Positions 46 through 19,292 of a stretch of 35,473 nucleotides of DNA are shown piece after piece. The notes below the pieces were generated by a model. That model had not been told where the DNA came from. It saw only the letters and a list, made by a program, of their open reading frames with translations, and did no database searches. A program made the position numbers and the translations under genes. This DNA is from Moorena sp. SS36440bin_2 (lineage in GTDB: Bacteria; Cyanobacteriota; Cyanobacteriia; Cyanobacteriales; Coleofasciculaceae), in the NCBI GenBank assembly GCA_011524395.1, contig WTKN01000428.1, positions 1-35,473 on the forward strand, in the 5' to 3' direction. Position 1 is the first letter of the stretch, and each line of letters starts with the position of its first letter.

Positions 46-654
46 CACGCCCTAGCTAAGTACGAAAAAAAACTGGCCAAAAAGCAAGGTATTGCTGCCC
101 GAAAAAAACAAGGCAGTAATGGGCGCAAAAAAGCCAAAAAGATTGTAGCTAAGGTATACGAAAAGATTGGAAATGTCCGCCAATACTACCTCCATAAGCT
201 ATCTAGGAAGATAGTGAATCAGAACCAAGTAGTGGTAGTTGAAAACCTCAATGTCAAGGGCATGGTTCGTAACCATAAATTAGCTAAGGCAATATCTGAT
301 CTAGGTTGGGGAACTTTTGTGAATTTTCTTTCTTATAAGTGCGAGAAAGAAGGGAAAGTGTTGGTCGAAATAAGTCGATGGTTCCCGAGTTCCAAAACTT
401 GCTCTAATTGTCATTACCGCATCAAGGAATTACCACTGGATATCAGGACTTGGACTTGTCCAAGTTGTGGAATTCACCACGACAGAGATGGTAATGCGGC
501 AAAGAATATTAGAGCAGAAGGGATCAGGATGCTATCCTCCTCTGGGACGGGGGAGGTCAACGCCAATGGAGAAAAAGTAAGACCAAGACGTGGACGCCCG
601 TCCAAGTTAAGGCATTCTTCAGTGAAGTTGGAAGTCCCGACCTCTAGGAAGTAG
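46..654 (+). pseudogene. tnpB: 5'-truncated IS200/IS605-type TnpB (OrfB) remnant
   Basis: The frame is open from about position 46 after a TGA at 43-45, and reads as the C-terminal two thirds of a TnpB RNA-guided nuclease. Visible parts are a basic helical stretch (YEKKLAKKQ), the RuvC-II motif with its glutamate (VVVENLNVKGM), the WFPSSKTCSNC...CPSCG zinc ribbon, and the RuvC-III motif HHDRDGNAAKNIRAEG with its aspartate. The RuvC-I aspartate region and everything before it are missing, and no other frame in bases 1-45 restores it, so the copy should be catalytically dead. An internal ATG-less start near 214 would give only about 146 residues. The stop codon lies inside the right-end hairpin, as is common in this family. 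Rejoining of the 5' part left of the window cannot be checked. Confidence 0.85.
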
Positions 655-3000
655 AGGTCGGGGTAGTTCACACATGCTAGAAACTACGATGGCTCCACTG
701 GTTGCCACTAACGCCAACGCTGATGGTATAAAAGGTATCCATCCCCCTTGGAGTAACAGACCATAACAGACTCCAGATAAGAGGCTGATACCAAAAAAAA
801 CAGCAATTCCCAAGTAGGATGGGGAATGTAAACGCCAAACTAATAAGCCTCCCACCACAGACCAACTACCAATCCAAAGCACTTCCCCCCACTGTGGCAA
901 CCACCAGAGCAACGGTCGTTTATCCAAAACAGCACTAATAATCTGACTACTCATCTGAGCGTGAACCATAACCCCAGGTATTTTGTCAGACCATGGCCCT
1001 TTAGTATAGGGAGTCCGGTGTACATCCTTTAAATCTTTACCAACCCCAATCAAGACAATCTTATTCTTGACTAAATCCGGCAGTTGGGAGTCGAGTTTAC
1101 CCTTGAGTAAGTCTTGGAGATTAACTTGTTTGGGATTCTTGGCACGATAATTAAGGAGTATCTGATATCCCATGGCATGTTTTGGCTCTAACTGATACCC
1201 ACCAGCATTGTGTGGGAATTTCCGAAACACCACATCACCGATTTCTACATCCCCTGCTGAATTTCTCTTCATCGGCGGGACTTCCTTTTGTTCGGCTAGG
1301 TAATTCAGAGCCACTTGTAAACTTAGAGAGTAAGTAGTATTACAAGTATCCGAAGAGGGCATCGCTAGAAGGTGGCGGCGGATAATATCATCTGGGTCAC
1401 GAGAGAAATCACTAAAGCCGATCTGTTGTGATGCCATACCCGGTGGTGAAGCGATAGCAGAGTGATCAATACTTTTCATTTGGCACACCCCAATGAAACG
1501 AGGATTTTGTTTCAATTGAGTCCCTAAGTTAGGTTCAAACTCAAAGTCATGATAAATATCTAAGCCAATCACTCGCGGTTGATAAGGGTTGAGTTTCCGC
1601 AACAGTTGTGCCAAGGCTGTATCGGATAATGAAGATAATGACCCTTTCGGTGACCAACCCATCTTTTTCTGATACTGAATATCTGGTTCATCCACCGCAA
1701 TTACTAAAACCCGCTCATCCGGCTTTTCAGGTGGTCGCAGACCCATCAGATGGTCGAAAGCACGTAATTCTGATCCTTGTAACAGCCCTAGCGATCGCAT
1801 TGTGATCACTGCGATAGTGACCATAAAACTTACCAGTAAAACCCTTGGGAGTTTGGGTTTATGCTTGAGATAGTCTCGATCATCAATAGGATTGCTAATA
1901 TTTCGGATCAAGTCTTCCCAAGTTGGCGGTTCCAGAGCAGGATTCTGAAATATCACTGGTAACCAACTAGCACAGGGATAGTTATCTTCTACCTCCTCCT
2001 GCAATCTTTTCCGGGTTTCCCAAACTGAATCCGATATGGATTTTTGCTTTGTGGCAAATGCGTTGAGAAAATACGTCAAAAACGTCTGAGCTACCTCATC
2101 TGGCACCCTTTCCCGCATGACCAGGGTTGTCGAGATTGGTAAACTAACCAATTCTGCTGCTAATCCTAACCCATCACAGGAATTAAAAATAGCCAATTTT
2201 AAACCATTTTTAATCGCATTGCTTAGACCATACTTTAACTCTTCAATGGTTAGGCTTTCATCTTCATTGATGAAAAAACATCCTTGTAAATTATCTTTTT
2301 CCGTCAAACTATGACCAGCAAAAAACAATATATCCCACCTTTTATCCCATAATTCATGGCTTAATTGTTTTTTTTTGGGACTGATTAAAGGGACAATTTC
2401 TGCATCCGGTAATTCCTCCTGCAGTAATGTCAAATCCTTCTGGATATCAATCCCCGTGTCATCTCCTAGAATTGCCAATAGTCTGACTTTATTTCTATAT
2501 TGGTCGATTTCTGGGGAGGGTAAGGAAAATTCTGATGTACTGAAATTAACCTCAATATCACAATCGGACAAAACATCCCAGAGATGCCAAGGTAGTTGCC
2601 AAAGTTTGATATTATTAGTTTGGATAATAAACCGAATCTGGTCATTATTCGATAAAGATTTCAAGACTTGATCCCGGAAGCGTTGAAACTTTCTATCCGT
2701 TGAATTTAGCCAATTATTGATCGCCTCTTCTAAATCATGAGCTGAGTTTATAATTGAATAGTTGGTTATCTGTTCTGAGGGAGCTGTCAGTTTCCGATGC
2801 AGTTTGATTCTTCCTTGAGCACGATAGCTTAAGAGCCAACTGTCACACAATTGGTTAATCTGTGGTGCTGGTGGTAACCAACCGTCGATTTCTCTAGGCA
2901 TTAACTTATTGTCATTGGCATCAATACCAATTTTTAAGATTACCCGAAATCCCTTTTTAAAATCACCATCAACTATTTTTAATGTTACTAGTTTCGTCAT
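619..3000 (-). CDS. CHAT (caspase-like) - CHASE2 transmembrane protein with IS-derived C-terminus
   Basis: The protein has about 793 residues. The N-terminal 360 form a CHAT-type caspase-like domain: FFAGH supplies His230 and FNSCDG supplies Cys275, so the His-Cys dyad is intact. A membrane helix at about 385-403 leads into a CHASE2 extracytoplasmic sensor domain (about 408-683, with ELRAFDHLMGLRPP and VLVIAVDEPDI). Three more helices follow at about 702-776. The predicted topology is therefore protease inside, sensor outside. The ATG at 3000 is preferred over one at 3021 because AGGGG sits 7 bases before it. The last 17 residues (from the Cys codon at 670-672) are encoded by the end of the neighbouring IS element, so the native C-terminus has been replaced. 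It is the last gene of a set with the DUF1822 and sigma-like genes. The domains are well supported; the substrate and ligand are unknown. Confidence 0.85.
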   Translation of the reverse strand: MTKLVTLKIVDGDFKKGFRVILKIGIDANDNKLMPREIDGWLPPAPQINQLCDSWLLSYRAQGRIKLHRKLTAPSEQITNYSIINSAHDLEEAINNWLNSTDRKFQRFRDQVLKSLSNNDQIRFIIQTNNIKLWQLPWHLWDVLSDCDIEVNFSTSEFSLPSPEIDQYRNKVRLLAILGDDTGIDIQKDLTLLQEELPDAEIVPLISPKKKQLSHELWDKRWDILFFAGHSLTEKDNLQGCFFINEDESLTIEELKYGLSNAIKNGLKLAIFNSCDGLGLAAELVSLPISTTLVMRERVPDEVAQTFLTYFLNAFATKQKSISDSVWETRKRLQEEVEDNYPCASWLPVIFQNPALEPPTWEDLIRNISNPIDDRDYLKHKPKLPRVLLVSFMVTIAVITMRSLGLLQGSELRAFDHLMGLRPPEKPDERVLVIAVDEPDIQYQKKMGWSPKGSLSSLSDTALAQLLRKLNPYQPRVIGLDIYHDFEFEPNLGTQLKQNPRFIGVCQMKSIDHSAIASPPGMASQQIGFSDFSRDPDDIIRRHLLAMPSSDTCNTTYSLSLQVALNYLAEQKEVPPMKRNSAGDVEIGDVVFRKFPHNAGGYQLEPKHAMGYQILLNYRAKNPKQVNLQDLLKGKLDSQLPDLVKNKIVLIGVGKDLKDVHRTPYTKGPWSDKIPGVMVHAQMSSQIISAVLDKRPLLWWLPQWGEVLWIGSWSVVGGLLVWRLHSPSYLGIAVFFGISLLSGVCYGLLLQGGWIPFIPSALALVATSGAIVVSSMCELPRPLLPRGRDFQLH
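636..671 (+). mobile_element. right end of the IS200/IS605-type element: hairpin plus TTCAC
   Basis: A perfect 10-bp inverted repeat (CCCGACCTCT at 636-645 and AGAGGTCGGG at 653-662, 7-nt loop) follows the sequence GAAGT and is followed by GTAGTTCAC ending at 671. A subterminal hairpin just inside the 3' end is the feature recognised by TnpA Y1 transposases, and it also lies where the TnpB guide RNA is normally encoded. The exact cleavage site is inferred from the similarity to the element end at 31481-31525. Confidence 0.7.
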
Positions 3001-3049
3001 TTTTAATCCCCTATTATTCAATGTAGAATTTAGAATTTATAATTATACA

Positions 3050-3238
3050 TTCTGCCTTATGACTTCTGTCTTCTACATTCTACATTCTACATTCTGCCTT
3101 CTGCCTTCTGCCTTCTGCCTTCTGCCTTCTGCCTTCTGTCTTCTGTATTCTGTATTCTACATTCTGCCTTCTGTCTTCTACATTCTGCCTTCTGCCTTCT
3201 GCTTTCTACATTCTACATTCTACATTCTGCCTTCTGAC
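3050..3238. repeat. 27-copy heptanucleotide tandem array (TTCTGCC / TTCTACA)
   Basis: Exactly 27 consecutive heptamers of the form TTCTNNN (one degenerate copy) fill 189 bp between the DUF1822 and CHAT-CHASE2 genes. This is the short tandemly repeated repetitive (STRR) type known from filamentous cyanobacteria. With the flanks it accounts for most of the 308-bp gap 3001-3308. No promoter or terminator could be recognised in the gap. The array lies within the 5' leader of the CHAT-CHASE2 gene if the three genes are cotranscribed. Confidence 0.95.
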
Positions 3239-3248
3239 ATAAAACCTT

Positions 3249-3272
3249 GGCCTATTGGCCACGCTACGCTAA
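3249..3272 (-). repeat. copy of the GCGTAGCGTGGCC interspersed repeat
   Basis: On the minus strand this reads TTAGCGTAGCGTGGCCAATA followed by GGCCAAGG, matching the core of the longer repeats at 11670-11700 and 31370-31400. It is short and has no coding potential. Confidence 0.5.
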
Positions 3273-3308
3273 CAACCTCACAACTCTAAAGCTTCAACCC
3301 AAGATAGC

Positions 3309-4859
3309 TTAAAGGATAAACTCTTTGGAGAAGCTGGCATATCCCAGTACTATTTTTACCATAAACCTATCCCCTTTTTCACCATTAAACTCTAATTGAA
3401 TCCAATTATCAGCAGTTCTCGACTGAGCCGACAAGAAAATTTCTTCCTCGTGATCAAGTACTAGCAATTCGAGATTAGGTTTTAGATATTTACTCTTAGT
3501 AGGATACACCCGTAAGTGAACATTAATTTCCCCAGCTGCTTCAGGTATGAGAGTAACCATAAATGCTACTTTGGTCTCATTGAGTTGCATTTCTAAATCA
3601 ATTATCTTAACTCGCCTGATCCCAGCTTGGGGATGATTTGGGTCAAGTTTTCCCAAACTGACAGCGGCTTGGCGACGTAAGTCATGATCGTGAGTAGTAT
3701 TGATCATCTCAGCAAGCAATGCGATCGCCTCTAAGTTACTATGACCAATTTCACCCAATAATTCTATAGCGGGTAAGTTAGTGTCTTTACTGCTATTGGT
3801 CTTTATTAGTTTAATAATTGCGGTCACAGCTTCAGGGATATTTTCAGAAAAAGGGGAAGATGCTGAAGAATTATCCTTGAAACTATCTTTCAAACGAGTC
3901 GGTTGAGACCGGTAAGCTAAGCTTAAAGTAGGTTGACCATTACGTGCTCGAATTTCCTCAACAGTTTGCCAACCAGCCTCCAGGAAATTATCCAGCCATG
4001 AGAGTAAATTTATAGATCGCTTACGAGAGTCAACTAGGGAACGTTGTTTATATAATTCCTTGCGCCATTTAGAATTTGATACCAGTGCCTGCCACTGAGA
4101 AAAAGGAATATCTAGCCTCGGAGAATAAAGAGTTTCCTGGCTCAATTGCTTGATTAACGTTGTTGCTTCATCACAGGATAATCTTGCCATTGGCTTTACT
4201 ACCAGTTTGGGACTAGGAGCAAGTTCTTCTGTTACCCACATCACATTCAAATCTTCAATTAAATCTACTGCATCCACAGCGTAGGTTTCATCGATGATGT
4301 CATACTTACCATCACGTAACTGTTGATAAGTGGTGTATCCCCACACCTGTAACCAGCATTCTTCTAAATTCAGTTGCATCCCCACATAATAATGACTAGC
4401 CCACTCAGGAATATCAACCCACTCTCGCGGTACTCGCAACGCTGTAAACTTGATTTCTTCACTAGGAATTAATACCAGTCGCATCTGGTTTAGCTCAACA
4501 GCTGTACCATTCACTACGTCCCAGAAACTTGGTAAATCCCCCAACTCTGGCCATACTAATGCTTTGTTTAGTGGTTTATTTAGTGGTGTATCTAGTGGTT
4601 TATTTCTTGCTTTATCTAGGGCTGTTTCTAGGAAATTTGATTCTGTTAAATTTGGTTTTATTAAATTTGCTTCTGTGTCCAGATAGTTTAAAAACGTATT
4701 TACACAGAGACAATTGAGATACCCTCGCCAACGAGCAGCTTGGTTAGAATAAGGTTGCTCTTGGGTTTTCTGCCATGCTTTGTCTCGTTCTTCTGGGGAG
4801 AATTCTATCAACAATTGTTCTGGATGTAGGCAAGCTACATCCTCTAAACTTAATTTCAT
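3309..4859 (-). CDS. DUF1822 family protein
   Basis: A soluble protein of 516 residues resembling the cyanobacterial DUF1822 family: N-terminal LSLEDVACLHPEQLLIEFS, then a W-rich middle with REWVDIPEWASHYYVGMQL and WLQVWGYTTY, and the later block WLDNFLEAGWQTVEEI. Residues about 350-410 look like one or two HEAT-type helical repeats (AIALLAEM, DLRRQAAVSLGKLDP), followed by a beta-rich C-terminus. Residues about 80-105 are a low-complexity stretch (DTPLNKPLNKAL) encoded by a short tandem repeat in the DNA. A good ribosome site (AGGAG, 3 bases before the ATG) supports the start. The gene lies between the sigma-like gene (103 bp upstream) and the CHAT-CHASE2 gene. Its function is unknown; a partner, inhibitor or substrate role is inference from gene order. 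Confidence 0.8.
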   Translation of the reverse strand: MKLSLEDVACLHPEQLLIEFSPEERDKAWQKTQEQPYSNQAARWRGYLNCLCVNTFLNYLDTEANLIKPNLTESNFLETALDKARNKPLDTPLNKPLNKALVWPELGDLPSFWDVVNGTAVELNQMRLVLIPSEEIKFTALRVPREWVDIPEWASHYYVGMQLNLEECWLQVWGYTTYQQLRDGKYDIIDETYAVDAVDLIEDLNVMWVTEELAPSPKLVVKPMARLSCDEATTLIKQLSQETLYSPRLDIPFSQWQALVSNSKWRKELYKQRSLVDSRKRSINLLSWLDNFLEAGWQTVEEIRARNGQPTLSLAYRSQPTRLKDSFKDNSSASSPFSENIPEAVTAIIKLIKTNSSKDTNLPAIELLGEIGHSNLEAIALLAEMINTTHDHDLRRQAAVSLGKLDPNHPQAGIRRVKIIDLEMQLNETKVAFMVTLIPEAAGEINVHLRVYPTKSKYLKPNLELLVLDHEEEIFLSAQSRTADNWIQLEFNGEKGDRFMVKIVLGYASFSKEFIL

Positions 4860-4961
4860 TGACTCCTATCCTTTTTGATTAATCGTTACTTGATATTTTG
4901 GATATTTTGTGTTTTGACGTTTCACGTTTCAGGTGTCACTTTGACTAAATTGGTTTTGCCT

Positions 4962-6884
4962 TTATCCTGAGCCAGATTGCTCTATTAGTGCCTGATTTTC
5001 CTGGATCCACCGCTCAATAAATTTAGCGATCGCTGGTTTAGCTGATCTAAATTTAATCAATTCTATAGAAAAAAGTTCCTCAATCAATGCCTCAAAAATG
5101 GGTTGAATTATTTCCAGTAAATTATGATTTTTTATAGTTAAGTTATTTTTTTCTATATCACCAAGACTTATTTTGATTAAATGATCAACATTTTCATCAT
5201 AAATTTCATAAATAATTTGAGCAAATAATTCTTGACTATCAGCACTCAAATAAGCTTTTAGATAGTTATTAATAGAGTTAGTTTTAGTGGTTTTAGCAAG
5301 GTACTGTTTGATGTCTTTTGAGGTTAGATTTGTGCTCATAGCATCCTGAAAATAAAAGGTAACGGCTGCCTTCAAAATACGTTTAAAATAACGTTTAAAC
5401 TGGCGAGCCACTTGATATTGCTTTTTAAACCCGAAAAGCTCGATAAAATCTTGTTGATTGATGCCTAGACCAAGCCAAAGTCTTAGGGATGTTTGAGCTA
5501 CCTGATCTAAAGCAGTAAATTCTTTTAAGATAATAGTCCTGACTTGAGTCAACTCATCCTTTTCTTCCTCTTGGATTACCACCTCTAAAGGATTAGATGC
5601 TATATCAGTAATTTCCCCATACTCATCCAAGGATACTGAATTCCGCTGTTGAGACATCCGCACCGCTTGGATACAAATGGCTAGCATTTCTTCAATGTGC
5701 TGTTCCCGTAGGGTGGGGGTCGCCCATGTGCTGTTCCCGTAGGGTGGGCGTCGCCCATGTGCTGTTCCCGTAGGGTGGGGGTCGCCCATATGCTGAGTCT
5801 CGATTGCTGTTCGCCTAGGGTGGGCGTCGCCCATATGCTGTTCGCCTAGGGTGGGGGTCGCCCATATGCTGAGTCTCGATTGCTGAGTGTTAATTGTTGA
5901 GTGTTGATTGCTGTTCCCGTAGGGTGGGCGTCGCCCATATGCTGTTCCCGTAGGGTGGGCGTCGCCCATATGCTGATTGCTGGTTGCTGAGTAACGTATT
6001 ACTTGTCTTAACCAATCTGAATCACTTCTTTTAGGGTTATTCCTCTTAAAATCAGCACTTTGTAACTCAGAGATCACGATTTTAGTTAACCGATTTAACT
6101 GCTGATTGTAACGAGTAGCAATTTGGTTAAGCTGTTGCTGGCTTAGGAATTTAATTGGGGAGTTATTGCGAGTATTTCCCTTGCTGCTGGGGGGATACAT
6201 CTCGTTAAAGTAGTCTTTAAACGATTGCCAAGCCAGACGATAATAGTTTAAATCTTGATTAGTGATTCCATAGTTTTTAAGTGCTTGCTCAAGTTCGCTT
6301 TTATCCAAATATCGCAACAAGCCATAATCAGAAAATTTGATAGATTTTAACCTGAGTTCCTTGGCGACTTGATTTCTAATAATTCGCTTGAGGGCATTGA
6401 AAGCATAGCCATTGATAGAAGACTTGGCATAAAAATTAAATCCTCGGAGGAGTTTAGCTGGTTTGCTGGCTGCTTCACTAGCAATGATGAAACATTCTTC
6501 TACAGGATAATGTAAGGCAAGATTATGAGATTTACTCAACTGATGGGCGATCGCTTGAGCTGCAGACCAACAAACAAACTGTAGGTAATTGAATAAAAGC
6601 TGATCAGATAACGTTAACAATAACAGATAAGCTCTAATCACCCCGATCGGAAGATTAGTAATGGATAAAATCCGGGAAATATCAGATGCTTGTCTCAACT
6701 GATATAAGAAGCAATCAGCCCACTGGGCTTCGCTCCTGTCTGGCTCATACTGGACTAGATGTGCCATGAAAGCCTCTAATCTAGAATTAGATTGAAAAAC
6801 CGCTTCGAGCCCCCTATCACCTTGATGGTCTTTTAAATAAATAGATGTCGAAAACGGTTTAATACCTGAGTTGTTAGTAGGCAT
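4962..6884 (-). CDS. sigma-70-like protein with an in-frame repeat insertion
   Basis: A protein of 640 residues. Residues about 125-215 (IIASEAASKPAKLLRGFNF, then INGYAFNALKRIIRNQVAKE) resemble sigma region 2, which binds core polymerase and the -10 element. Residues about 445-505 (LRLWLGLGINQQDFIELFG, then YQVARQFKRYFKRIL) resemble region 4 with a helix-turn-helix. Between them, residues 301-396 are encoded by seven copies of a 31-bp DNA repeat and carry GDAHPTGTA / GRRPPYGNS / WATPTLREQ strings, clearly an insertion in the linker. The last 130 residues are helical and unrecognised. GAGG lies 9 bases before the ATG. It is first in the set with DUF1822 and CHAT-CHASE2. The sigma assignment comes from pattern reading only and needs a profile search; otherwise it is a conserved hypothetical. 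Confidence 0.6.
   Translation of the reverse strand: MPTNNSGIKPFSTSIYLKDHQGDRGLEAVFQSNSRLEAFMAHLVQYEPDRSEAQWADCFLYQLRQASDISRILSITNLPIGVIRAYLLLLTLSDQLLFNYLQFVCWSAAQAIAHQLSKSHNLALHYPVEECFIIASEAASKPAKLLRGFNFYAKSSINGYAFNALKRIIRNQVAKELRLKSIKFSDYGLLRYLDKSELEQALKNYGITNQDLNYYRLAWQSFKDYFNEMYPPSSKGNTRNNSPIKFLSQQQLNQIATRYNQQLNRLTKIVISELQSADFKRNNPKRSDSDWLRQVIRYSATSNQHMGDAHPTGTAYGRRPPYGNSNQHSTINTQQSRLSIWATPTLGEQHMGDAHPRRTAIETQHMGDPHPTGTAHGRRPPYGNSTWATPTLREQHIEEMLAICIQAVRMSQQRNSVSLDEYGEITDIASNPLEVVIQEEEKDELTQVRTIILKEFTALDQVAQTSLRLWLGLGINQQDFIELFGFKKQYQVARQFKRYFKRILKAAVTFYFQDAMSTNLTSKDIKQYLAKTTKTNSINNYLKAYLSADSQELFAQIIYEIYDENVDHLIKISLGDIEKNNLTIKNHNLLEIIQPIFEALIEELFSIELIKFRSAKPAIAKFIERWIQENQALIEQSGSG
5701..5973. 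repeat. seven-copy 31-bp repeat inside a coding region
   Basis: Copies start at 5701, 5732, 5763, 5808, 5839, 5912 and 5943. Copies in direct contact have a period of exactly 31 bp, and short spacers (GAGTCTCGATTGC-like and GAGTGTT-like) separate the blocks. The core reads TGTTCCCGTAGGGTGGG then CGTCGCCCATATGC, with TTCGCCTAGG variants. Since 31 is not a multiple of three, successive copies are read in successive frames of the host gene on the minus strand, and all three are open. Confidence 0.95.
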
Positions 6885-14987: not shown

Positions 14988-16622
14988 TCAAGATTCTGGG
15001 GAGTCAATAATAAACTCAAAGATCTGACCACGAGGACCACCAAACTTAAGCTGAATACCCGACCTTAGCTGAACTTCCTGATGATGAACAGTTTTCCAAC
15101 CATTATCGATTAATATTCTCGTACCATTACGAGAAAAATCCCTCAAGAAGTAAGTTGGATCCGAGCCTTGGTCAGTGAAAGCATCACGGCAGATAATTTC
15201 AGCATGTTGCTTACTAACACAAACTTCAGGAATCACCAAATCGTTGTGAGATTGTAGGCGTCCCACTCGCATCAATCCACCTCGAATCGGCCAGACCTGA
15301 TCGGTTTTTTCTATGGAACGCAAAGACGCAGTTGGGGGTGGACTTTCAAGCCAGCTTGAGGTGATGGTGGGCAGTTCTGTAATTCCTTCCCCCACCGGTT
15401 GGATTAACTCCCCATCAAACTGAGGATGCATATAAAGGATAGGCAAGGTCCAGGCTGGTTGGTTAAACTTGTAAAGGGTCAACATGTGCTGTCTGGCCAC
15501 AGCTACAGCATGGTCAATTGGCATGCGCTCCGCCAAGGCTTGGGCGAATGCTTGAATAAAACTCACGGCTTCTTGGTCAGCAATGGAGTCCCGCATCCCC
15601 AAAACTGCTGGGACACCGTGGTGAATGAGCACCTCAGCTAAACTACTACGGGGAATGGTTTGGGAATTAACTTGGTCAGGTTGGGCACTCCAACAGGCAT
15701 TGAATACAGCTAAGGCAACCTGGGTGCGGACCAAAACCTGAGCCAATTCCGTACCACTAATTTTCGCATCCGAGCGTAAAAATAGCAAACCTCCGTCTGG
15801 TGCGCTTTCACCATGACCAGCATAGAATAGGATGTTATAGGCACGCCTTTCGAGTGCTTTAATCAGTTCAGCTGGTGTGGGTTGTATTAGTTTTGAGACG
15901 TTGCAGGTAACTGGTGGAACGGATTGGTTCCTAGAAGTTTGAGCGGCTCTACCAGCTTGAAGGGCATTTACCAAGGTAGCCGCTTCTTTTTCGAGGTCCA
16001 AATTGGTAGTCGAACCATTTAATTTTTGAACCTTCTCTCCTAGAACTAACAAAATATTGAGAGCCTGGTGGGAGCGCAGGGGTTCGAGTGCGTCTACATC
16101 ACTAGTTGTGCGGCTAAACAGGATTTGCTGAGAAAGGGAAATTGCCTGTTTACCCGCCATGGGTTGCATAATTTCCCAGGGGAGGGGAATGAAATCTCGA
16201 GCGCGGACTTCTAAGCGCAGGCGAAGGGGTTTATTTTGTCCCAAGGCAATGCCTTGACTTCGTTCGAGGGCATTGCAAATTGAGCCTTGAAACAGCCACT
16301 GCCAGAGGTCAATGCCCAAACCTTGCATCAAACGACCACTGTAGCTAATCTCCGGACCTGTAGCACCGTTTTGATTCTCTGAGGGCAAAGTGGTGGGATA
16401 CTGGTTGTGATGACCACTAATCGGCACATGGTTTGAAAATGGGGAAAACATTTCCTGCCAAGCCAGCCAGGACTTAGTCATATATTCAGACCAAGTAGAA
16501 TCATGATGAACCATACCCCCTGGGTAAGGAGCTTTCAGGACCCAGATAGCCAAGTTTTCTCTGCCAGCGGCAGATAGACGAGCGATCGCTAAACTGAGGC
16601 AAGGATTTTCGATACCAGACAT
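14988..16622 (-). CDS. CHAT (caspase-like) - FHA domain protein
   Basis: 544 residues, soluble. Residues about 130-410 form a CHAT domain: LEVRARDFIPLPWEIMQP, the His of FYAGHGES at 270, and the Cys of VFNACWSAQ at 310; the dyad is intact, so peptidase activity is plausible. Residues about 450-535 form an FHA phosphothreonine-binding domain, with Gly-Arg (MRVGRL, 454-455), S-x-x-H (SKQHAEI, 470-473) and NGT (499-501). A poorly conserved linker with SPPPTAS joins them. It lies 207 bp downstream of a PP2C phosphatase gene on the same strand. This suggests control by protein phosphorylation: FHA would bind a phosphothreonine partner and the phosphatase would reverse it. The substrate is unknown. 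The start ATG is followed directly by a homolog-like N-terminus, but the ribosome site is weak. Confidence 0.88.
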   Translation of the reverse strand: MSGIENPCLSLAIARLSAAGRENLAIWVLKAPYPGGMVHHDSTWSEYMTKSWLAWQEMFSPFSNHVPISGHHNQYPTTLPSENQNGATGPEISYSGRLMQGLGIDLWQWLFQGSICNALERSQGIALGQNKPLRLRLEVRARDFIPLPWEIMQPMAGKQAISLSQQILFSRTTSDVDALEPLRSHQALNILLVLGEKVQKLNGSTTNLDLEKEAATLVNALQAGRAAQTSRNQSVPPVTCNVSKLIQPTPAELIKALERRAYNILFYAGHGESAPDGGLLFLRSDAKISGTELAQVLVRTQVALAVFNACWSAQPDQVNSQTIPRSSLAEVLIHHGVPAVLGMRDSIADQEAVSFIQAFAQALAERMPIDHAVAVARQHMLTLYKFNQPAWTLPILYMHPQFDGELIQPVGEGITELPTITSSWLESPPPTASLRSIEKTDQVWPIRGGLMRVGRLQSHNDLVIPEVCVSKQHAEIICRDAFTDQGSDPTYFLRDFSRNGTRILIDNGWKTVHHQEVQLRSGIQLKFGGPRGQIFEFIIDSPES

Positions 16623-16829
16623 TAAAGGTTCATCATTATAGGGAATATACCGATGTGAGGATCAGTCTATCGAGTCTCGGGTAGTATTGGTGCTATCAAT
16701 AATGAGTAATTGGTCATTAGTAACACATCATTAGTTTCCAGTTCTTAGTTGAAGAGTTGAGTGGTTAGTCAGAAAGCTTTGGTCAGCTAAAACTTAAAAG
16801 CAATAAGCTAATGACTACTTGCTCAAGAC

Positions 16830-19292
16830 TTAAGGAGATTGAGTAGGTCGAGGAGAACTAGACGGAGGCGTATTTTTCTTACATTGACTGACTTGGGTAG
16901 GGGTTGCTGTAAAATCACGAGCCATCATAGGTAAAATCTCCTTTTCTCTTATCCACCCTTCCTGTGCCTGTAACACCAAGGTAGCAGAGGGTTTAGTCTG
17001 CTTAGAGTTTAACGGTACTGAGGATGAGCCAACTTTGGGGGAGCTAGCCATTTGATCCGATGGAATATCAGTTGTGTTGGTTCCGGGTGAGCAAACTCTT
17101 AATTTAATCCACCAAGTCTCTTCCTGAGGATACCTTTTTCTGGCAATAACCTGCAAAACGCTACCAGCAGGAACTCTCCCAAGGATTGATTGCTTTTCAG
17201 GGTTAACCAAAAGTTGTACAGTTTGACCCACTGTTCTAATAATATCTTGGTTTTTAATTAAGGCAGCTGGCTTAGCAGTGGTCCCGGACTCAGGGGTTTG
17301 TCCTGGGATAGCTTTAGTTTCTGGACTCTGTGTAGGGGTTTTAGAACGGCTTATTTCTTGCCCCTTACCGAGACTAAAAACCCCACTCAGGAAGCGATTT
17401 ATCTGTCCACTCGCCTTTAGACTCAACACTGGACTCAACAGATAAATAACTACCCCTCCTAACACCAACAACACGAATATGCCCAACAACAGTCTGCCAG
17501 TCTTCTCAGGAGAGGTTGAAGCTGAATAATTAGGATTTTGTTGACCAGAGGCTTCCCCATCTTCGATGAGGTTAAGTGTGAGCAACGCTGTTTTTTGTTC
17601 ATCAATAGAAGCGGGTTGCTGATCACTCTTAACGTTTAACATTACAGTATTGTTGGTCTCGAGATTGCCAATGGATTCTAGCTGTGGGGGTGATAGTTGG
17701 ATTGGCATCGAAGGCTGGCTTGGTGTGACTTGACAGTAAATCAACCCCACCGTGACATTGTCGTGTCCGTTTTTGGTATTAGCAAGTTCAATGATTCGTT
17801 CTGCTGCTTTTTTGATATCAATTTGACCGTCGAGAATGGGCAGGATTTCTGTTTCCCAGTACTGCTCGACTCGGTCATTGTCACTAAGACCATCAGAACA
17901 CAGCAGAAAAACACAATCTTCATCCAACACCAAGCGCTGTACAGTCGGGTGTAGTGTGGTTGATGAACCCATCCCTAAAGCTTGCACTAGGGCACCAGAT
18001 GTTGGTTGTTGTAGAGCATGTCGGTAAAGGGTATATCCAAGCCGCACTTCTCTGGTGGCTAAATCATCATCTAGAGTAACTTGGTGACAACCATGGCGAC
18101 TCACCCAATAGATTCTGCTATCCCCGACATGGGTAATGTATATTTCATGGGCATGGGTTCTAGCCATGACCAAGGTTGTTCCCATACGCTGCCGATCAAA
18201 TCGGTTCTCATGATCATTGCGTTGGCTAATGGAGTCATTGGCAGCACATACAGCATTTTCCAATTCCAGGCTCTTAGTGGTTGGGTTCCACACCTCCAGT
18301 TTAGCTGGCAGTTGTTTGAGCTGTTGTCGCAGAGTGTCAATTGCCAGTTGGGAGGCAATTTCACCACCTGCTTGTCCACCAATGCCATCGCAAACCATTG
18401 CGATCGCTTCTTTACCTCTCGAAGAGCTAATTAGCTTACCATTAGGAGGGTAGCAAGCGTCTTCATTGTGGCTACGACCCGGACCGGTATCGGTACGAGT
18501 GAGAGTCTTATAGGTTCTCGATTGCCATGAACGGCATTCAAACAACCCTTTCGCCAGTAATGCTAACAGCTGCTCTGATGTCTGTATCTGTCCTTTTGTA
18601 AGCTGGGAACAAAGTTGTTGGTAAAACTCACTAATAACAGGGGAAGCTCCCTCAAGCAGTTGTGACCACAGCTGACCCAGCTGTTTTAAGGTTGGTGCTG
18701 GCGTTTGATCAGGCTGCAATTCCAACAACCTTAGCAAGGCTCCTTCCACCCGCACCTGGTTTGATTTCAGTAAACTAGACCCTACTCCTTCTCGGCTCAA
18801 CGGTTGCCAAAGTGAAGCCCATTGCTGCAACCAGTTGAGTTGGCGTATTGGTGAGGCATCTTTCCATACGCTGGTCAGTTCTGGTAACAGTTGTCCAAGA
18901 GTATTAATGTTCCCTGTTGCCTGAATTGGTACTCCTTCGAGTAACCAAATCTCTTTGTTATGCCTTGGCTTCGGTGTTAGCAGACCATACACTTGAGGCA
19001 GGTGTAATCCATAGGAAACCAGTCTCAAGTATGGGGTTATGGTTTGAGGAATCTCTAGTGGGGTCTCTGGCGGTACCGCTGGTTGAGTATCTAAAAGAAC
19101 ACGAGAGTGAATCAGGAGGTAGCGCTGAGCAATAAGTTCTCCCGGTTGATCGGCTTTTATGCCTGACCCAATAGCCCACAAGTATCGTCTGAGCAGCGGC
19201 GTGCGACATTTTTGGCAGAACTTGTTGGTCTGGGGATTGGGAGCCTGACATTGATGATTTGGGCAGTGGAGCGTTGCCGCCGGATTGTCCAT
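16830..19292 (-). CDS. membrane PP2C-type Ser/Thr phosphatase with zinc ribbon and SH3-like tail
   Basis: 820 residues. Order: a four-cysteine zinc ribbon at 10-30 (CPNHQC...CQKCRTPL), an unrecognised helical region of about 200 residues, a PP2C phosphatase domain at about 261-520, a single membrane helix at about 601-620, and a C-terminal region (about 680-800) with an SH3-like stretch (VQLLVNPEKQSILGRVPAGS). Metal-binding motifs are present: RSHNEDA, MVCDGIGGQAGG, THVGDSRIYW, LCSDGLSD and GHDNVTVG. It should dephosphorylate Ser/Thr in the cytoplasm and may sense envelope signals through its outer tail. The gene precedes the CHAT-FHA gene. The ribosome site is weak. Confidence 0.9.
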   Translation of the reverse strand: MDNPAATLHCPNHQCQAPNPQTNKFCQKCRTPLLRRYLWAIGSGIKADQPGELIAQRYLLIHSRVLLDTQPAVPPETPLEIPQTITPYLRLVSYGLHLPQVYGLLTPKPRHNKEIWLLEGVPIQATGNINTLGQLLPELTSVWKDASPIRQLNWLQQWASLWQPLSREGVGSSLLKSNQVRVEGALLRLLELQPDQTPAPTLKQLGQLWSQLLEGASPVISEFYQQLCSQLTKGQIQTSEQLLALLAKGLFECRSWQSRTYKTLTRTDTGPGRSHNEDACYPPNGKLISSSRGKEAIAMVCDGIGGQAGGEIASQLAIDTLRQQLKQLPAKLEVWNPTTKSLELENAVCAANDSISQRNDHENRFDRQRMGTTLVMARTHAHEIYITHVGDSRIYWVSRHGCHQVTLDDDLATREVRLGYTLYRHALQQPTSGALVQALGMGSSTTLHPTVQRLVLDEDCVFLLCSDGLSDNDRVEQYWETEILPILDGQIDIKKAAERIIELANTKNGHDNVTVGLIYCQVTPSQPSMPIQLSPPQLESIGNLETNNTVMLNVKSDQQPASIDEQKTALLTLNLIEDGEASGQQNPNYSASTSPEKTGRLLLGIFVLLVLGGVVIYLLSPVLSLKASGQINRFLSGVFSLGKGQEISRSKTPTQSPETKAIPGQTPESGTTAKPAALIKNQDIIRTVGQTVQLLVNPEKQSILGRVPAGSVLQVIARKRYPQEETWWIKLRVCSPGTNTTDIPSDQMASSPKVGSSSVPLNSKQTKPSATLVLQAQEGWIREKEILPMMARDFTATPTQVSQCKKNTPPSSSPRPTQSP

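Follow-up and report, generated by a model that had tools for sequence, protein, structure and literature searches.

The window analysed here, i.e. the whole 35,473-nucleotide contig WTKN01000428.1 of the cyanobacterium Moorena sp. SS36440bin_2 (contig C401 of a 441-contig, 7.75 Mb genome), carries three minus-strand open reading frames (ORFs) which, in the order of transcription, encode a sigma-70-like protein, a DUF1822 protein and an EACC2-CHAT-CHASE2 membrane protein, all within positions 619-6884 (Table 1). The three genes, the intact His-Cys dyad of the CHAT domain and the conserved gene order are confirmed, and we regard the locus as a genuine regulatory unit that is conserved and probably functional, and that has been outlined before in print. 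Kaur et al. (2021, eLife, PMC8195603) described, in the accessible text, EACC2-caspase proteins, some of them with CHASE2, beside genes for extracytoplasmic function (ECF) sigma factors and DUF1822 proteins, and proposed a sequence of sensing, caspase autoactivation and sigma-driven transcription.

In the reading that we favour, to which we give nearly, but not quite, even credence, DUF1822 would hold the sigma factor until the CHAT protease cuts DUF1822 on an outside signal. We infer that the sigma factor is inhibited and that DUF1822 is cleaved, and likewise the signal and the regulon. The sigma-70-like factor would be made with DUF1822 as its dedicated partner, which would keep it inactive; a sigma inhibitor is what DUF1822 most likely is, because it occupies the anti-sigma slot of the operon. 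CHASE2 would read a signal outside the cell, probably together with an exported-looking DUF928 protein whose gene lies downstream in relatives, and this signal would activate the cytoplasmic CHAT cysteine protease. The protease could then cut DUF1822, and the freed sigma factor would drive transcription of its targets, among them, in the paralogs with a short sigma, its own operon. The gene families, the dyad, the gene order, a ratio of nonsynonymous to synonymous substitution rates (dN/dS) below 1, the CHASE2-DUF928 link and a promoter motif in the short sigma class are computed results.

The original prediction, made from the letters of the window, had named the three gene types, all of which were found with clear domain matches for DUF1822, CHAT and CHASE2, and had named a lack of sigma similarity or of co-occurrence elsewhere as refuting it; sigma similarity and co-occurrence were both found. 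In the genome of the window itself, all 10 full-length DUF1822 genes are followed by a same-strand CHAT gene (the one at locus L049 lacks a Pfam CHAT match and keeps the motifs), and 9 of the 10 units have a sigma-like gene upstream, the tenth lying at a contig end; in the C418 unit, a partial DUF1822 copy separates the sigma-like gene from DUF1822. Across the phylum, DUF1822 matches are present in 102 of the 146 sampled genomes. The window sigma, used as a query, has 27 relatives outside its own genome, 25 of them with a DUF1822 match at most 1.1 kb downstream on the same strand; the other two (G109:C1:4025286 and G119:C1:1788148) have no DUF1822 beside them among the matches listed. Among 102 DUF1822 ORFs (100 loci, 40 genomes), a sigma-like gene lies upstream of 87, an EACC2-CHAT gene downstream of 58, and both accompany 47. 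Since 25/27 sigma relatives and 87/102 DUF1822 ORFs keep the sigma-DUF1822 arrangement, the gene order is far beyond chance, and sigma-DUF1822 is a steadier core than DUF1822-CHAT.

The sigma hidden Markov models were trained on genes upstream of DUF1822, which favours the 87/102 count; the 25/27 count is without this bias. The 100 loci were chosen from the 150 matches listed out of a larger number, 138 of them outside the genome of the window, and cover 102 of these 138; the 36 not taken comprise 10 from f24 genomes (weak matches, long ORFs) and 26 others, mostly weaker, from genomes G002, G011, G022, G033, G045, G058, G066, G083, G093, G095, G109, G111, G116, G118 and G123. Loci that are near-identical or come from related strains do not count independently, and L099 and L332 are apparently the same contig. 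Of the 78 named loci retrieved with the CHAT protein as query, 68 have DUF1822 upstream; the closest named relative by this protein is Moorena sp. SIO3I8, at 86% identity (very near records were possibly omitted). Median gaps are 24 bp between sigma and DUF1822 (16/87 overlapping) and 44 bp between DUF1822 and CHAT (5/58 overlapping), and in the window they measure 102 and 287 bp, respectively. DUF1822 matches also occur in 25 plasmid records, 11 of them typed as mobilizable or conjugative. Pairwise dN/dS between congeners is 0.41-0.54 for sigma, 0.55-0.59 for DUF1822 and 0.44-0.47 for CHAT (no significance test); all three genes stay below 1, in keeping with purifying selection, with some sub-regions near 1, e.g. 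the sigma linker and the HEAT-like insert of DUF1822.

In regard to the protease, the dyad is intact and proteolytic function is predicted. His and Cys (H237/C282) are found in 145 of the 151 aligned family rows and no substitution occurs, the other 6 rows being split or truncated ORFs with a gap at one or both positions. The ATG at 3000 (residue 8) is a likelier start than the TTG at 3021, because the family alignment begins there. According to the positive-inside rule, basic residues mark the cytoplasmic flank of membrane segments; the basic stretch KHKPKLPR precedes the first membrane segment (390-408) and therefore places CHAT inside and CHASE2 outside, the orientation first proposed for this protein. 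An N-terminal constant part, which aligns across 10 paralogs, stands before CHAT, and the C-terminal modules vary: 32 of the 57 family members compared have a CHASE2-like module, and four scanned members carry Peripla_BP, nSTAND1-WD40, NB-ARC-TPR or TPR modules. Examples of the same CHAT family are L053:6718-9441 with Peripla_BP_6, L180:5616-10001 with nSTAND1-WD40 and L214:4803-8222 with NB-ARC-TPR. The CHAT profile had no relative among solved chains (best E=0.54). DNA similarity to three congener genomes ends at window positions 674-681, so the last ~18 CHAT codons (619-674) are unlike those of the relatives.

The sigma similarity proposed for the 640-residue protein is, by sequence comparison, weak for the single protein and firm for its family. 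Alone, the protein matches TIGR02937 at E=4.4e-4 (19.9 bits, below the cut-off of 42.9) and has no Pfam sigma match. A 23-member profile of this protein and 22 relatives, searched against solved chains, finds region 4 of SigF at E=4e-7 and FliA at 1e-4, with non-sigma helix-turn-helix (HTH) proteins matching more weakly, from 1.7e-4 upward. Region 4 of the window sigma is secured by these profile matches. Region 2 is at most probable: the same profile reaches the N-terminal domain of SigE at E=0.9, a weak signal, and a short-class paralog of the same genome matches Sigma70_r2 at 1.7e-4 with a score below the model cut-off. The predicted structure is of modest quality (pLDDT 64), and 30 of its top 32 Foldseek matches are to a sigma fragment or to chains from entries of RNA polymerase initiation complexes and holoenzymes, at weak E values of 0.17-1.5. 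At eight plasmid loci, the RefSeq annotation of the upstream neighbour of DUF1822 was read: five times it is 'sigma-70 family RNA polymerase sigma factor', three times 'hypothetical protein'.

Proteins directly upstream of DUF1822 form two BLAST clusters, a short one (mostly 210-320 aa) and a long one (mostly 390-640 aa), which together take in 56 of the 57 proteins compared; the window sigma belongs to the long class. Its residues ~270-392 are missing in the 22 aligned relatives and consist mostly of the 31-bp repeat array (residues ~298-397); this stretch links the two halves of the protein and is shorter in three congeners, linker length varying among four congeners in all, and a search for the repeat pattern in the genome of the window gave seven copies, all within the window sigma gene. 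We considered the Anabaena factors SigJ, placed beside SigF in the accessible text of PMC2758279, or SigI as a possible identity of the long-class sigma; the text of PMC6495340 is without any mention of 'DUF'.

The DUF1822 gene product is modelled as helices with a HEAT-like insert (~residues 341-405; HEAT_2 at 27.5 bits, just below the cut-off of 27.7) and a predicted C-terminal beta-sandwich. A hydrophobic start is present in only 9 of 182 DUF1822 proteins. Neither profile nor Foldseek searches brought out a solved relative of DUF1822. The original prediction had suggested a comparison with Csx30 of type III-E CRISPR systems, and kinship was dropped: the DUF1822 profile has no match among solved chains below E=0.75, and Csx30 is absent among the 50 of 850 Foldseek matches listed, from libraries whose content of Csx30 was unchecked. 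The two Foldseek matches with E<=0.001, both to Brr2, are taken to be meaningless, with TM-scores of 0.04-0.12 and a root-mean-square deviation of ~22, and the remaining matches listed are mostly partial (~80-140 residues) and to beta-sandwich-like domains. The f24 genomes (e.g. G115:C6, G122:C25), which are small and outside the window's class, hold weak DUF1822 matches in ORFs of ~500-1300 aa, covering mostly the N-terminal half among the matches listed. In the literature searched, one further paper mentions DUF1822 (PMC9679502).

A fourth gene recurs next to the CHASE2 versions. DUF928 (PF06051) lies downstream of CHAT in 62 of 80 CHASE2-CHAT genes of named loci, and in the phylum sample, among versions with enough flanking sequence to show it, it follows 21/30 that have CHASE2 and 0/20 that do not (Fisher p=2e-7). 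Left out of this test are 8 entries, from 7 distinct CHAT ORFs, in which the CHAT ORF is truncated or the flank is too short; with them included, the counts are 22/32 and 1/27, the one being the broken ORF of L218. DUF928 proteins look exported, with a hydrophobic start in 88 of 94 as against the few DUF1822 proteins having one. Three congeners have DUF928 on the strand of the CHAT orthologue, at distances of 0.5, 2.0 and 5.7 kb downstream from it. Exported-looking DUF928 proteins tied to CHASE2 proteins are seen at L099, L322-L328, L330-L332 and most CHASE2 loci; four further CHASE2 genes of the genome of the window (L056-L059) are also beside DUF928, with no DUF1822 in the stretch seen. Beyond DUF928, a TPR-CHAT protein may follow (L332:496-3375 with an exported-looking start; L330:1-2241, cut), on the opposite strand in 18 of the 22 loci having one. 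The CHASE2-DUF928 neighbourhood has been noted in one species (PMC5587647, accessible text), and our literature search found no further publication on DUF928.

Contacts among the three proteins were assessed by covariation in 98 complete sets, background-corrected, with effective numbers of 47 (short class) and 28 (long class). Trees of the three genes would agree from linkage alone. Linkage is equal for sigma-DUF1822 and sigma-CHAT, and within classes sigma-DUF1822 exceeds sigma-CHAT in 19/20 bootstraps (short) and 16/20 (long). In the pooled 21-letter run, which mixes the classes, the share of strong pairs is the same for DUF1822-CHAT and sigma-DUF1822, both ~2.5x that of sigma-CHAT. We take the covariation as a hint about contacts, from a sample too small to decide.

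Upstream of short-class sigma genes, the motif TAAAGTTTTGTAAC-N15/16-GCGTAAAA (TGTAAC-N15/16-CGTAAA) recurs, which resembles ECF promoters with their AAC core and CGTA. Its first half, GTTTTGTAACA, occurs with at most two mismatches in 27/70 short-class vs 3/74 long-class upstream regions, and in 50 Markov shuffles it was in 4.4 of the 70 short-class regions on average and in 10 at the most. With a spacer of 15-17 and no more than one mismatch over the 12 core bases, both halves are found at 13/69 short-class genes vs 2/835 other ORFs (Fisher p=9e-14, which is overstated because there are close relatives among the 13 and the motif was counted on its discovery set); with two mismatches the counts are 21/69 vs 48/835. 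This ECF-type motif supports autoregulation in the short sigma class. For the long class of the window, no promoter motif was found (upstream regions of relatives were read by eye), and the intergenic regions of four congeners have no common block callable as a promoter. Consensus sigma-70 sites are rarer in the operon than in shuffles (9 vs a mean of 11.4).

Several observations weigh against a switch in which CHAT cuts DUF1822. There is no EACC2-CHAT gene within 1 kb downstream of 44 of the 102 DUF1822 ORFs, some of which are at contig ends. For these 44, 20 downstream proteins were scanned, one per locus: TPR-CHAT proteins (L178, L210, L268), Trypsin_2 (L182, L191, L254), Peptidase_C14 (L204, L235), an M48 peptidase (L223), a TPS-domain protein (L200), TPR proteins (L207, L250, L274) and ordinary neighbours (L193, L202, L216, L217, L221, L258, L260). 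The Trypsin_2 and TPR-CHAT third genes have a signal-like hydrophobic start (judged by hydropathy and eye) and therefore should not meet a cytosolic DUF1822. In congener G146, the CHAT gene (C1:643929-646274) lies ~614 kb from sigma-DUF1822 (C1:1259835). Covariation of DUF1822-CHAT is mixed within classes: top scores put it above sigma-CHAT in 17 and 12 of 20 bootstraps, the fraction of strong pairs in 5 and 14 of 20. The promoter motif occurs at 1/71 sigma genes of the long class, to which the window belongs, and with three mismatches its contrast is gone (34/69 short-class vs 338/835 others). Finally, the DUF928 gene of the window is a prediction, and the contig ends 618 bases past the CHAT gene. 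The proteolytic switch put forward by the original prediction thus stands as plausible and near the proposal of Kaur et al. (2021, accessible text), and its simple version is weakened by the exported-looking third genes and the mixed DUF1822-CHAT covariation. The variety of third genes can be read in two ways: proteolysis seems to be of importance at this position, yet the protease may be output.

It is indeed conceivable, if rather unlikely in our judgement, that the sigma-DUF1822 pair controls the neighbouring protease, sensor and DUF928 genes, and that CHAT has other substrates. Such an arrangement would suit the constancy of sigma-DUF1822 next to a varying third gene, the third genes that are exported-looking proteases, the position of the short-class motif in front of an operon containing the CHAT gene, and the persistence of sigma-DUF1822 in G146 with no adjacent CHAT gene. 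However, the third gene met most often is EACC2-CHAT, whose CHAT is cytosolic beside a sensor, as in an input module, the two C14 third genes (L204, L235) have no membrane or signal-like segment, and the motif, at one mismatch or less, is not above background at DUF928 (0/100) or CHAT genes (0/149). The separation in G146, where DUF928 stays beside a CHAT gene retained at 92% identity, suggests two modules, sigma-DUF1822 and CHAT/CHASE2-DUF928. Mere neighbourhood of the three genes, for which the same separation could be adduced, is hardly credible given an order conserved in many genomes, overlapping genes and the retention of the G146 CHAT gene.

Alternatively, CHAT could mainly cut itself, with CHASE2 or other signals triggering autoproteolysis and an immunity or cell-death response, and the sigma factor acting later. 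This comes near to the model of Kaur et al. (2021), whose accessible text argues for it, as does the joining of a constant N-terminal and CHAT part to exchangeable C-terminal modules; we consider it unlikely, however, as PADLOC matches none of the three proteins and an association with sigma and DUF1822 speaks for transcription, not killing. Still less probable is a long-class pro-sigma, in which CHAT would trim the C-terminal extension or the long linker of the sigma factor. The extension evolves fast (dN/dS 0.58-0.80) beyond a conserved region-4 half (0.19-0.25), but short-class sets have the same CHAT family with a far shorter sigma, several long-class relatives of ~400 aa are without most of the extension, and sigma-CHAT covariation is below sigma-DUF1822. 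Taking DUF1822 as the target further, it is possible, albeit doubtful, that sigma-DUF1822 is a widespread cyanobacterial sigma/inhibitor cassette which takes varied proteases and sensors, with exported DUF928 as the outside partner of the sensor in the CHASE2 version, a single cytoplasmic cut in DUF1822 by CHAT that sets the sigma free, and about ten parallel channels in one cell.

Compared with the EACC2-caspase system of Kaur et al., the window shares the gene types, the variable C-terminal sensor including CHASE2, and the neighbouring sigma and DUF1822 genes. The accessible text of that paper (PMC8195603) stresses autoproteolysis and calls DUF1822 a TPR protein, whereas our model has helices, a HEAT-like insert and a beta-sandwich; that text mentions neither DUF928 nor a promoter motif, and it neither divides the sigma factors into two classes nor sets sigma-DUF1822 apart as a core. 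What may be new, then, is that sigma and DUF1822 form a core whose third gene is exchangeable, that the sigma factors fall into two classes, that DUF928 goes with CHASE2 as a rule, that the short class has a promoter motif and that the two modules can be separated in nature. In our literature search, EACC2 outside Kaur et al. (2021) appeared only in a paper which by its title concerns colorectal cancer, and no publication joined CHASE2, a CHAT domain and cyanobacteria, or cyanobacteria, a CHAT domain, a sigma factor and a caspase.

Other systems follow a similar principle. Likewise built from a CHAT protease, a mid-sized partner and an ECF-like sigma, type III-E systems have Csx29 cut Csx30, which binds and inhibits CASP-sigma (PMC10028731, accessible text). 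However, those systems are RNA-guided, and the window has no CRISPR-like array (the only direct-repeat families found are two tandem arrays) and no CRISPR effector (Cas7-11) among the scanned proteins, nor was a likeness of DUF1822 to Csx30 found in the searches above; PADLOC, run on 13 window proteins, matched no Cas model and gave a single family, PDC-M43B, the protein being a histidine kinase. The parallel is an analogy that extends at best to the working principle and not to kinship; if the proposed switch is true, it would be a membrane-ligand-driven counterpart of the Csx29-Csx30-sigma switch. In CalpL-CalpT-CalpS (PMC11417357, accessible text), protease, anti-sigma and ECF sigma are likewise switched by a ligand, the difference being a Lon protease with a SAVED sensor for cyclic tetra-adenylate (cA4). 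Anabaena HetF cuts PatU3, the restrainer of HetZ (PMC12288457, accessible text). This is a cyanobacterial precedent for the cutting of a protein that restrains a regulator, and the window CHAT resembles HetF weakly (22.3 bits vs a cut-off of 1200). To our knowledge, the HetF system involves neither a sigma factor nor a CHASE2 sensor. In systems of the RseA/RsiW type, the anti-sigma factor spans the membrane and a signal frees the ECF sigma by proteolysis of this inhibitor. Anti-sigma factors of this type are named in the accessible text of PMC10028731; in contrast to them, the window DUF1822 looks soluble and the protease itself carries the sensor.

We know of many caspase-like proteins in cyanobacteria and of few with a known substrate. 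The unit offers a direct route to CHAT substrates, DUF1822 first, and to ligands through DUF928 with CHASE2. If the switch is true, control of sigma factors by CHAT would be a wider bacterial scheme and not a CRISPR speciality.

Table 1. Features of the sigma-DUF1822-CHAT locus in the window.
Feature	Position	Strand	Basis
Sigma-70-like protein, long class, 640 aa	4962-6884	minus	TIGR02937, family profile, Foldseek, RefSeq names of plasmid relatives
Region-2-like part (probable), ~residues 90-230; region-4-like HTH, ~residues 460-510; C-terminal extension, residues 517-640	sigma gene		
DUF1822 protein, 516 aa, proposed sigma partner/inhibitor	3309-4859	minus	DUF1822 E=9e-82
EACC2-CHAT-CHASE2 membrane protein, 800 aa from TTG 3021 or 793 aa from ATG 3000	619-3021	minus	domain scan and family alignment
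CHAT domain	1963-2439	minus	E=1.5e-11
CHASE2 domain	844-1818	minus	E=7e-63
Codon of predicted catalytic His, H237	2311-2313	minus	paralog and family alignments
Codon of predicted catalytic Cys, C282	2176-2178	minus	paralog and family alignments
31-bp repeat array, in frame within the sigma gene	5695-5992	minus	repeat search
7-bp tandem repeat array in the DUF1822-CHAT gap	3050-3236	unassigned (.)	repeat search

Two further observations concern other parts of the window. A TnpB-like ORF at 214-654, the sole scanned protein with a Cas12f1-like_TNB match, overlaps the 3' end of the CHAT gene and is read as a remnant of a transposon TnpB. At 14988-19292, a HetF-like CHAT-FHA protein adjoins a PP2C phosphatase on the same strand.

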